A stretch of DNA of 64,000 nt from Desulfurococcales archaeon (GTDB taxonomy: Archaea > Thermoproteota > Thermoprotei_A > Sulfolobales > NBVN01), in assembly GCA_023255955.1 (NCBI GenBank), contig JAGDWD010000007.1, positions 197,929 through 261,928 on the forward strand, read 5' to 3'. The first letter of the stretch is position 1. Every line of letters begins with the position of its first letter. Shown piece by piece: positions 10,074-59,522 of the stretch. The translations under genes were made by a program, and so were the position numbers. Below the pieces are notes generated by a model. The model made no database searches, had not been told where the DNA came from, and saw nothing but the letters and a program-made list of their open reading frames with translations.

Positions 10074-11474
10074 CTAAGTGGTTTGTAGTTTAATAATTAC
10101 GTTCCTGAGGTTCCTCATAAAGTAGTTAAACCTTTCCCGAAGCAGAGGCCTCTCCTCTGATATCACCTTAATAGCTCTTGAGTAATTTATGAGGATTATA
10201 TGAGAATCACGGAAAAGCGCTATCTTGCTAGCGAGTTCTTCCTGCTTTAGCCACTGGCCCCAAAGAACACCCCTACCTATAGCTTTAGAGATAAACTTCC
10301 TGGCACTGTCCGGGACTTTCCCTGGAGGTGCGAATGAGAATGGTGTGCCGGGGATAGGCATGAATACGTGACAATGTATCCTACCACCTAACTTAATTAC
10401 CCTCTCGATGTGGTTTAACGTTTCAGTAACATCTTCGTCGCTTTCACCGGGTAGTCCAAAGATATAATCAATATCTACTTCAAAACCATACTTCCTAGCA
10501 ATTGAGATAGCGTTCAGTACGTCCTCAGCTGAGTGTCCCCTATGAAGTAGCTTAAGGAGCCTATCAGAGCCTGTCTGGGCGCCTATGTTTATTCTCCTGT
10601 TATCGACTAAGCTCCTTATTGACTTGAGTAGATCGTCAGTAACGTATTCAGGCCTCACCTCACTAGGAAATGTACCGAGATACACCCTCCCGCCTAACGA
10701 CCTGATCTCACGGTTCATTACCTCTAGTAGCTCGATTATTGAGGAACTTGAGGCCTTAATACGTTTATATTCATAGTGGAATCCGTTAGGTGATATGAAT
10801 CTAATGTCTCTAATACCTCTCCTTAGAAGTATCTTAGCATACACAACAGTATTCTCAATACTCCTAAACCTAGGTACTGCTCCAAACATAAAACTTACTT
10901 GGCAGTAGCGGCAGGCGTGGGGACAGCCACGCATGATTTCTATTGGGTTGAGCAGACCGAGCTCCTCACAGAAAGGAGGTACTTGATCTAAGTCCTTAAC
11001 TCTAGGGTGGTCAAACCTAGCTTCTACACCAACCTCATCTATCGCTACCACACCATTAACTGATGGGTGGTCACTTACTGAGATGAGCTTATCGATGAAC
11101 TCAGTAAGCGATTGCTCTGCTTCCCCTATGAACGCTAAGTCAAACCCCAGCTTCAGAACAGTACCGTATGGATCACCAGACGGGTGAGGGCCTCCAGCAA
11201 CAGTGATCCCGCCAAGCCTCCTCGATATCTCAGTAGTCTCAACGATCCTACGTAAATTCTGAATCACCTGAGTCGTAAGTAAGGATACCAACAGAATATG
11301 GGGACCTCCGAGTGAGGTGATTACTTGAGTAGCTCTATCCCACTTAGTCAACACAAACCTGAACTTATCGTAGATCCTCTCACGCTTAAGGTAGTCGATT
11401 AAGTAACCTAGAAGTACACTTATACTGTACTTATTTGCTTCATCAGCTACCACCACTACCGGAACTCTAAACAA
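10074..11474 (-). CDS. B12-binding-domain radical SAM protein
   Basis: IMRGCPHACRYCQ radical SAM motif; N-terminal cobalamin-binding-like fold with GGPHPSG. Confidence 0.88.
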   Translation of the reverse strand: MFRVPVVVVADEANKYSISVLLGYLIDYLKRERIYDKFRFVLTKWDRATQVITSLGGPHILLVSLLTTQVIQNLRRIVETTEISRRLGGITVAGGPHPSGDPYGTVLKLGFDLAFIGEAEQSLTEFIDKLISVSDHPSVNGVVAIDEVGVEARFDHPRVKDLDQVPPFCEELGLLNPIEIMRGCPHACRYCQVSFMFGAVPRFRSIENTVVYAKILLRRGIRDIRFISPNGFHYEYKRIKASSSSIIELLEVMNREIRSLGGRVYLGTFPSEVRPEYVTDDLLKSIRSLVDNRRINIGAQTGSDRLLKLLHRGHSAEDVLNAISIARKYGFEVDIDYIFGLPGESDEDVTETLNHIERVIKLGGRIHCHVFMPIPGTPFSFAPPGKVPDSARKFISKAIGRGVLWGQWLKQEELASKIALFRDSHIILINYSRAIKVISEERPLLRERFNYFMRNLRNVIIKLQTT

Positions 11475-22205: not shown

Positions 22206-22345
22206 CCGTTTGTCCCTAGATGCTTGTTGATGTGGGTTTATGTTTGTTTATTGCGTCTAGGGACTTCCACCTTACTCGCAGGGGTTTTCCCTACCCCTGC
22301 GGGTCGTGGGCGGCCTTCGTCCCGAACGGAACGCAGGACACATCT
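22206..22345 (-). ncRNA. candidate TnpB-associated omegaRNA/reRNA scaffold (copy A)
   Basis: About 140 nt strongly conserved with 58859-59000; 12-bp stem GTCCCTAGATGC/GCGTCTAGGGAC (22212-22223/22253-22264) and GC hairpin CGCAGGGG/CCCCTGCG (22277-22284/22294-22301); overlaps the tnpB stop codon. Confidence 0.55.
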
Positions 22346-22479
22346 ACGCTTAACCCCGCAGAGCTCGGAGCACTACTCCCATCACTCAGCAGGGTATCCA
22401 AGCTACCTACAGGAATGAAGTTAGTGAGCTCAACGCATAACCCCAGAACACAGCAAACCATAAACACAGAGACCACCAA
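22291..22479 (-). pseudogene. TnpB C-terminal remnant (copy A)
   Basis: Minus-strand ...LLSDGSSAPSSAGLSVDVSCVPFGTKAAHDPQG* matches copy B ...LGGDGSNAPSLSGLDLDVSRMPFGTNTTHDPQG*. Confidence 0.6.
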
Positions 22480-22559
22480 TCAAAAACAGAACAGCCCAAA
22501 CTACTTACTAGTTAAATAATGATGCTAGTGTTAAATGCGGATCTCACTAAGTAATTTCC

Positions 22560-58175: not shown

Positions 58176-58853
58176 GTGCTGGTGGTGGAGTTGAGTGAGG
58201 TTTACAGTACTCTCCCACCTAAATATGTCGAGTCTCTGGTCTACATAGATCTAGTCGACATATTGACTGCCTACCGGAGAGTATCTAGGCTCTCCACTAT
58301 CGGTAACATTATAGGTGTCCGCGATACATCTCTAAGTAAGTACATCAATGGCAAGCTCAGACCTAGATCCGCCAGGAGCTTGGCCATGATAAAGACTCTG
58401 ATCGATATGAACTTAGTAAAGAACGCTGTCTCGGAGTACCTACGTGATAGGAGCTTAATCGAGCTACTGACAGACATTCCGTTCACAAAGCTCATAGCCT
58501 TATCTATCATGGAGAGGTTGGTAAAGCTATTTCACGGTAGCCGTGTAGAGACAGTAATAGCCTCTAGCGAAGCCCTCTTAATAGCTTCGCACATATCGCA
58601 CAGATTGAGGTCCTCTCTAATTAATTTACACACAGTCCGTGGTAGCTCAAAAGTTAGGAATCTAGGTAATACAGCAGTAATCTTAGTGATAGCGGATGAC
58701 GAGATAATTAAGCAGCTGGTTAAGGTTAAGACTGAAGGTAGGAGAACTACTGTGAAATATATATTCCTAGTTATTTATTCAAAGGAGGTGGACATATTGG
58801 CATCCATCTTCCCCAACACTACCGTAGAATACCTTGTCGGTACCCTACCCTAG
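58176..58853 (+). CDS. HTH regulator with degenerate phosphoribosyltransferase-like domain
   Basis: HTH IGNIIGVRDTSLSKYINGKLRPRSARSLAMI; C-terminal Rossmann-like strand/turn pattern. Confidence 0.6.
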   Translation: MLVVELSEVYSTLPPKYVESLVYIDLVDILTAYRRVSRLSTIGNIIGVRDTSLSKYINGKLRPRSARSLAMIKTLIDMNLVKNAVSEYLRDRSLIELLTDIPFTKLIALSIMERLVKLFHGSRVETVIASSEALLIASHISHRLRSSLINLHTVRGSSKVRNLGNTAVILVIADDEIIKQLVKVKTEGRRTTVKYIFLVIYSKEVDILASIFPNTTVEYLVGTLP

Positions 58854-58858
58854 ATTTC

Positions 58859-59000
58859 CCGTTTGTCCCTAGATGCTTGTTGATGCGGGTTTATGTTTGT
58901 TTATTGTGTCTAGGGACTTCCACCTCGTCCACAGGGTTTTCCCTATCCCTGTGGGTCGTGGGTGGTGTTCGTCCCGAACGGCATGCGGGACACATCTAGG
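58859..59000 (-). ncRNA. candidate TnpB-associated omegaRNA/reRNA scaffold (copy B)
   Basis: Conserved with copy A; stems GTCCCTAGATGC/GTGTCTAGGGAC (58865-58876/58906-58917) and CCACAGGG/CCCTGTGG (58929-58936/58947-58954). Confidence 0.55.
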
Positions 59001-59264
59001 TCTAGTCCTGAGAGGCTTGGAGCGTTGCTCCCATCACCTCCCAGGGCTCTGAAGAGTAGGTTCCAGCAAGCAACTACATCTCTATGCCATAGCTCACCAC
59101 CAACACTACACCTACCAATACGGGAGCTGTTACTGTAAACGATGTGTGTCTTGTGTACTGGGCATACCTTAGATGTGTTCTTAGGGTCTACGTAGATTAC
59201 GGGTACACCAAACTCCCTAGCTTTCTCCTCAATAGCTAGCTGAATACCTCTAAAACACGCTTAG
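58943..59264 (-). pseudogene. TnpB C-terminal fragment (copy B)
   Basis: Minus strand reads ACFRGIQLAIEEKAREFGVPVIYVDPKNTSKVCPVHKTHIVYSNSSRIGRCSVGGELWHRDVVACWNLLFRALGGDGSNAPSLSGLDLDVSRMPFGTNTTHDPQG*: TnpB Zn-finger/RuvC-III region; N-terminal two thirds missing. Confidence 0.75.
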
Positions 59265-59522
59265 TAGCTAATACCAAAGCCCCACACAAACCTCCCCAAA
59301 AACACCAACTACAAAACATAAAACAAAACCCTATAAATCCAACAAACACCAACCAAAAAAAATAAAACAGCCCCGAGCTATTTCACATGAAAATTCTCTC
59401 GCTATCTTCGACAACAAGAAGTTGATTAGTTACCCTAGGAGAATTCAAAGCAGGCTTACGTCTTCCTCAGCAACTCCTGATGTAGTCTAGTCCTTTTAAA
59501 GAATACTACATCACATAGCATT

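Follow-up and report, generated by a model that had tools for sequence, protein, structure and literature searches.

Miniature IS607-type elements of a Desulfurococcales archaeon keep a covarying, omegaRNA-like module

Introduction

TnpB is thought to keep its own transposon in place. Guide RNA loci without an adjacent nuclease gene, the stand-alone omegaRNAs of IscB, were reportedly described by Altae-Tran et al. in 2021 as being served in trans; these belong to the IscB/Cas9 lineage and to bacteria, whereas the case considered here concerns TnpB and IS607 in archaea, and miniature inverted-repeat transposable elements (MITEs) that have both ends. It comes from a window of 64,000 nt, the whole stretch of DNA that was analysed, in Desulfurococcales archaeon GCA_023255955.1 (contig JAGDWD010000007.1, positions 197,929–261,928, forward strand), where a minus-strand element with a TnpB remnant, referred to below as copy B, was found to belong to a large family built around a structured RNA module. 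The best explanation, which we hold to be fairly probable, is that the short members of this family are omegaRNA cassettes which TnpA mobilises and whose RNA is probably taken up in trans by TnpB.

The closest described systems are those of IS607 TnpB and its right-end element RNA, reRNA (ISXfa1, PMC10711439; ISFba1 and kin, PMC11061315). As in these systems, the RNA of the present family spans the 3′ end of tnpB together with the right end, with the host flank as the predicted guide, a fixed right-flanking nucleotide in the scaffold and a TnpB that has the RuvC triad. The RNA of IS607 TnpBs continues beyond the right end, and the scaffold of ISXfa1 includes the fixed right-flanking nucleotide (PMC10711439); the transposon-adjacent motifs (TAMs) tested so far for IS607 abut the left end and are AG-rich (PMC11061315). 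The IS607 transposase recombines matching dinucleotides, GG in the case of IS607 itself (PMC4058570). Unlike in those systems, where the RNA occurs together with tnpB, most copies here lack tnpB, the RNA has no Rfam match and the genome is archaeal.

MITEs of ~260 nt linked to IS607-family elements were reported in 2009 from Staphylothermus marinus as similar to DNA upstream of transposase open reading frames (ORFs) (PMC2678158). They share with the present family the archaeal group, a similar length and the IS607 link, and are likely identical with it, but no guide RNA was recognised in that report; the right-end pattern of the RNA is also present in a Staphylothermus metagenome-assembled genome (L248). 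The palindrome-associated transposable elements (PATEs) of Haloquadratum (PMC3119063) are likewise non-autonomous and coreless, derive from an IS family that bears TnpB, and far outnumber their parents; they differ in being of IS200/IS605 type, with near-terminal palindromes and short core-deleted forms (e.g. 52 bp), and retention of an omegaRNA was not part of their description. No description of MITEs built around an omegaRNA was found in a literature search outside which most subscription journals lay, and priority cannot be claimed; the IS607 MITE and the omegaRNA are each known, their combination being apparently unreported.

Copy B and its family

Judged by its sequence, copy B is an internally deleted IS607-type element, a deletion derivative intermediate between the full element and the ~230–320-nt MITEs that make up most of the family in this genome (G000). 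The first-pass annotation had seen in it a product of decay reduced to the TnpB C-terminus and the 3′ end; yet copy B, which has no tnpA, also keeps a left end of its own and is therefore bounded on both sides (Table 1). The TnpB fragment named in that annotation was recovered as a minus-strand ORF of 105 aa, in which PF07282 (Cas12f1-like_TNB) was matched over 66 residues (E 6.6e-13, 49 bits, cut-off 26 bits). It lacks the first two catalytic residues and holds only the third RuvC residue, so that no nuclease is possible. The remaining landmarks were found just as described: the stop codon that follows HDPQG (58943–58945) lies inside the loop of the hairpin at 58965–58920, a 12-bp stem comes next, and the element ends sharply at 58859 (...CATCTAGGGACAAACGG), where the similarity to nearly all other copies stops. 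In four genomes of the same genus (G001, G004, G005 and G006) the genes that flank the copy B site stand at approximately element-free spacing.

The genome (1.64 Mb, 13 contigs, 97% complete) gave 44 BLAST matches to the copy B segment, mostly to the ~179-nt module alone, and a covariance model built from 36 copies found 37 strong copies (149–219 bits) and 14 weaker ones (E up to 0.1). The strong copies comprise one intact element, four with a tnpB remnant (copy B included), 31 MITEs of ~230–320 nt and C11:23198, which was left out of the class assignment. The MITEs consist of a parental left end fused to a structured RNA module of ~190 nt at its 3′ side, and beyond this module no tnpB sequence is present. 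Copy A, whose similarity to copy B had been noted before and was confirmed, is one of these 31 miniature copies (module 22206–22385). The name MITE is apt, as the elements are short, non-coding and multi-copy, have both parental ends, and represent insertions absent from relatives.

The intact parent, on contig C2, encodes a serine-recombinase TnpA of 215 aa with the domains of an IS607 TnpA (HTH_17 at 8–55; Resolvase at 66–198, 2.6e-24) and a TnpB of 435 aa, which is the intact cognate of the same subfamily that the first-pass annotation had proposed to look for. The element had been taken there for a candidate orphan omegaRNA whose RNA part has outlived the nuclease part. A structure of omegaRNA/reRNA type does overlap the tnpB 3′ end, but ‘orphan’ is misleading because an intact parent with TnpA and TnpB is present in the genome; similarly, the RNA does persist in protein-less copies, but the pattern is that of a MITE expansion and not of a single RNA. 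Two of the four remnant copies, at the start of C3 and at the end of C8, are cut by contig ends, and kin left ends bearing tnpA or the start of tnpB also reach contig ends (C10, C11 and C13); more full-length elements of the copy B subtype may therefore sit in assembly gaps.

The left end of every MITE in which it could be recognised has at least three G residues followed by CTG or a near variant, and the right end is AAACGG in nearly all copies, AAACAG or AAATGG being rare. Both flanks of these GGG..ACAAACGG elements differ at every site, with no fixed longer target, and such GG-type ends and variable flanks fit IS607 but not IS605. An IS200/IS605 origin was rejected also because the Y1 TnpA genes of this genome (on C9, C12 and C5) lie away from the parent and no fixed left-flank motif was found; of the IS605/IS607 pair named in the first-pass annotation only IS607, with its serine recombinase, applies. 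One MITE (L076, G000:C8, module 10190–10369) interrupts an aspartoacylase/succinylglutamate-desuccinylase-like gene; excising GGCTG...AAACGG gives back one 308-codon frame, and the gene is unbroken in G001, G002 and G022, the G002 homologue having one extra residue at the insertion site. When flanks were joined at MITE sites, two clear cases fitted insertion of GGCTG...AAACGG and the others were ambiguous as to the crossover base. In 24 of 30 copies the left GGG is preceded by a T or a G, which is compatible with a G-rich TAM but no proof of it, and no TAM beyond ~2 bases could be read from the 30 left flanks.

A covarying RNA module

The covariance model search found kin of the module in 112 of 199 genomes from the order. 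Ninety-eight modules from the order, aligned by sequence alone, were scored over 45 pairs, 27 of which had changed on both sides; 92.6% of cells were paired, double-change cells numbered 294 as against 73 ± 7 in shuffles that ignore relatedness among the sequences, and pairing fell to ~45% when the partner was shifted by one column. The expectation that substitutions in relatives would respect the stems was thus borne out. The 179-nt copy B RNA folds at −56 kcal/mol, compared with −43.9 ± 4.2 for shuffles (z −2.9), but the covariation over 98 sequences is better proof than the fold energy that the structure of the module exceeds chance.

The closing stem P1 (12 bp), which encloses the first hairpin, emerged after 14 nt upstream had been added to the alignment, and it took the place of a helix that RNAalifold had first put at columns 21–43. 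All 12 of its pairs have double changes, with 203 double-change cells versus 71 ± 10 shuffled. The right-end stem P5 occurs as CCTAGATG/CATCTAGG, CCTACCG/CGGTAGG, CCTACACC/GGTGTAGG, CCTTGATG/CATCAAGG and in other variants. On this strand G-U and A-C cells stand at 63:20 in full copies and at 192:99 in MITEs (shuffles, 95:54 and 233:142), a G-U excess that points to an RNA on this strand, with a clear signal in full copies and only a mild one in MITEs. The layout is that of an omegaRNA or reRNA, in that a structured RNA overlaps the 3′ end of tnpB, stops at the right end and is followed by a variable guide. Among the Rfam covariance models, RAGATH-18 included, none matched up to E = 1, and the module had no match at the gathering threshold.

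Table 1. Features of copy B and copy A in the 64,000-nt window (window coordinates)
Feature	Position	Strand	Evidence or remark
Copy B, whole element: left end, TnpB C-terminus, RNA module and right end	58859..59374	-	Both boundaries common to other copies
Left end, starts GGGGCTGTTTTATT	59265..59374	-	Kin left ends: tnpA at C10:90463, tnpB start at C11:1-690
C-terminal part of TnpB, with TNB domain and third RuvC aspartate (RDVVACWN)	58946..59254	-	PF07282
5′ arm of the P1 closing stem (partner 59015-59004)	59037..59048	-	Coincides with the 5′ border of the MITE module
P1 closing stem, 3′ arm	59004..59015	-	Covariation
P2 hairpin GGAGC-aac-GCTCC within P1	59019..59031	-	99% of cells paired
P3 hairpin GTCCCG..CGGGAC	58971..58991	-	Double changes in 5/6 pairs; GAGCCC..GGGCTC in other copies
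P4 long stem CCACC..CCACAGGG/CCCTGTGG..GGTGG	58920..58965	-	Double changes in 9/17 pairs; TnpB stop codon in loop
P5 right-end stem, 12 bp, 58917-58906 with 58876-58865	58865..58917	-	Double changes in 9/12 pairs; 94% of cells paired
Right terminus ACAAACGG, near-invariant, final GG (as IS607 overlap dinucleotide)	58859..58866	-	Copy comparison
Predicted guide GAAATCTAGGGTAGGGTACC, host DNA	58839..58858	-	Position by analogy with IS607 reRNAs (PMC10711439)
Copy A, complete MITE of 292 nt, same family	22206..22497	-	RNA module 22206-22385, left end from ~22497; no further tnpB

Loss of tnpB and the state of the module

Copies in relatives, in a sample that favours high-scoring ones, mostly have a full-length tnpB or nothing recognisable upstream of approximately TnpB residue 356–387. 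When MITEs are compared with the full element of their own genome, the alignment enters the module between about −20 and 0, where the 5′ arm of P1 lies, and often takes in a piece of the left end as well; left end and module are fused at a near-identical point in ~9 genomes of several families, a few copies (G139 L188 and G057 L169) retaining slightly more than the module. Most MITEs are closest to the full element of their own genome. In a tree of 115 modules there are 21 changes between the full or partial state and the MITE state, and 35 genome-label changes where the minimum is 30. Branch support is modest, and gene conversion may inflate the former count; we therefore claim, on the strength of this tree, that the MITE-type loss of tnpB arose independently several times, not 21 times.

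Covariation is strong in MITEs taken alone, with 182 double-change cells versus 50 ± 6 shuffled (141 versus 44 ± 5 in relatives; 34 versus 14 ± 3 in the own genome), and P1 alone has 126 versus 46 ± 8 in this set, although stops or frameshifts interrupt the reading frame in many of these modules. It could be argued that the MITEs are dead relics, that their covariation stems from many separate coding parents and that no selection has acted since tnpB was lost. MITEs do cluster with the parents of their own genome, which means that inheritance from coding parents accounts for some of the covariation, and several copies are frameshifted or chimaeric. Yet the MITEs have multiplied (31 copies, among them two pairs with identical modules at different sites), one of them interrupts a gene that is intact in relatives, and 92% pairing persists after the coding function has gone; ordinary decay thus appears very unlikely.

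Another view would be that the ~190 bp are kept as right-end DNA sites for TnpA, or since short elements move best, the RNA being an idle leftover. These archaea are known to have MITEs, of IS607-family origin among others (PMC2678158, PMC3718332), and the structure is slightly relaxed in MITEs, as detailed below. However, such a view would leave unexplained the strong covariation, in MITE-only sets, of stems that lie 60–190 nt from the end, as well as a kept boundary that coincides with the 5′ arm of the RNA closing stem and was reached repeatedly; moreover, IS607 works on double-stranded DNA via a dinucleotide core, with no obvious need for long covarying stems. We consider this view of the elements as plain MITEs unlikely, while granting it some weight.

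Promoter, guide and nuclease

Transcription of the MITE modules is plausible. A perfect TTTAWA lies 41–71 nt (mostly 41–50 nt) upstream of the module in 20 of 43 MITEs of relatives, where 5.1 would be expected by shuffling, and at the corresponding distance in none of 35 full copies. The main MITE type of G000 has a conserved stretch of ~70 nt (..TTATGCGTTAAGCTTATTAACTTCATTCCTATAAGTAGCTTGGA..), situated from ~75 to 10 nt before the RNA module; neither the C2 parent nor the C10 left end matched it, and it is possibly a captured promoter.

The predicted guide of copy B overlaps, in antisense, the 3′ end of an ORF of 225 aa. This ORF (58176–58853, plus strand), for which no match was found in Pfam, adjoins copy B, and its position is conserved across the genus. 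In a genome-wide search that covered the guide of copy B, GG plus its first 16 nt matched exactly only at its own site, the next best being three sites with 3 mismatches.

Many guides together with an intact TnpB in one genome formally resemble a dispersed guide array, and some MITE RNAs might have been domesticated by the host, being kept so that TnpB cuts or blocks plasmids, viruses or host genes. But the guides are simply the flanks of the insertion sites, and that of copy B has no second exact match in the genome. The module itself had no match among phage sequences and a single partial one among plasmids, to the tnpB of a Pyrococcus plasmid, and the insertion is absent from same-genus relatives at the one locus compared. 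Domestication of this kind seems to us scarcely probable.

The nuclease that would serve the MITEs is intact. The C2 TnpB has a complete RuvC D-E-D triad, and D191, E279 and D365 are invariant among 21 full-length members of its family. The family profile matches TnpB and Cas12f structures, residues 189–382 being aligned with the solved TnpB 8bf8/8ex9; a PDB search with a single TnpB sequence gave no match. The zinc-finger region of C2-type TnpB reads CxxH...C and not four cysteines. At least one intact relative of the C2 TnpB is present in most of the 28 genomes checked, and in most of the MITE-bearing ones; no intact close relative was seen in G131, G118 and G011.

Proposed mechanism and its implications

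If MITEs are indeed omegaRNA cassettes, they would be moved in trans by TnpA, as their shared ends imply, and their left-end sequence, with a TATA box in many relatives, would promote transcription of the module and of the first ~20 nt of the flank. The RNA module stops exactly at the right end, so that host DNA would follow as the guide; the scaffold would thus extend from P1 to ACAAACGG, and the guide would comprise the next ~16–20 nt. The intact TnpB would bind this omegaRNA in trans. On excision, the site would regain the left flank together with the guide target, and TnpB carrying the MITE RNA could cut the empty donor site or an unoccupied allele, the repair of which would restore the MITE. 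The RNA would be kept for the TnpB-guided retention that it may confer on a MITE without any coding capacity.

Several observations weigh against this explanation. Pairing is slightly lower in MITEs than in full copies (92.0% versus 94.0%), and so is the ratio of G-U to A-C cells (1.9 versus 3.2). In the C6:9132/C12:390402 pair and in C1:75342, all from G000, P3 is partly unpaired and combines the 5′ half of one stem version with the 3′ half of another, which suggests recombination between copies; given the lower pairing and at least three copies with a chimaeric P3, some MITEs are probably decaying. Only one of the 31 MITEs of the main type of this genome has a perfect TATA match, the place of the TATA box being occupied by weaker TATA-like stretches (e.g. 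TTATTAA). Copy B has CGG at the end of its left flank (..CTCGG) as well as of its right terminus (..AACGG), which leaves it less than obvious how the occupied site would escape cleavage. The neglect of relatedness in the shuffles also belongs here.

Taken together, the family suggests that a single intact TnpB may serve dozens of short parasitic elements. If MITEs keep the guide RNA alone, TnpB would be a common resource exploited by non-autonomous elements; this would help to explain why such MITEs outnumber their parents, and the MITEs would amount to natural, repeated evidence for a minimal working omegaRNA. A bolder proposal, to which we would give an even chance, is that of a two-level parasite, in which MITEs use the IS607 TnpA for movement and TnpB for RNA-guided homing at each insertion site, one tnpB serving dozens of distinct guides in trans; it would have originated repeatedly among Desulfurococcales-type archaea, since nothing smaller than the omegaRNA would be worth keeping. 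From some 37 natural guides in one genome the rules of targeting might be read by sequence comparison, and the RNA is now defined for a TnpB subfamily of heat-loving archaea that has a CxxH-type zinc-finger region.

Other transposon-related loci

The Y1 TnpA genes mentioned above (L083, L094 and L097), two of which lie near a TnpB of 424 aa, appear to have no link with the family. Another IS607-type element, which is decayed (L095, G000:C1:52240–52885), has short remnants of TnpA and TnpB and no strong match to the RNA module. In G003, a second TnpB subfamily (L148 and L149), 46–47% identical to the C2 TnpB and with the canonical four-cysteine zinc finger, has the same right terminus, ATCTAGGGACAAACGG, and a related RNA module of lower score.
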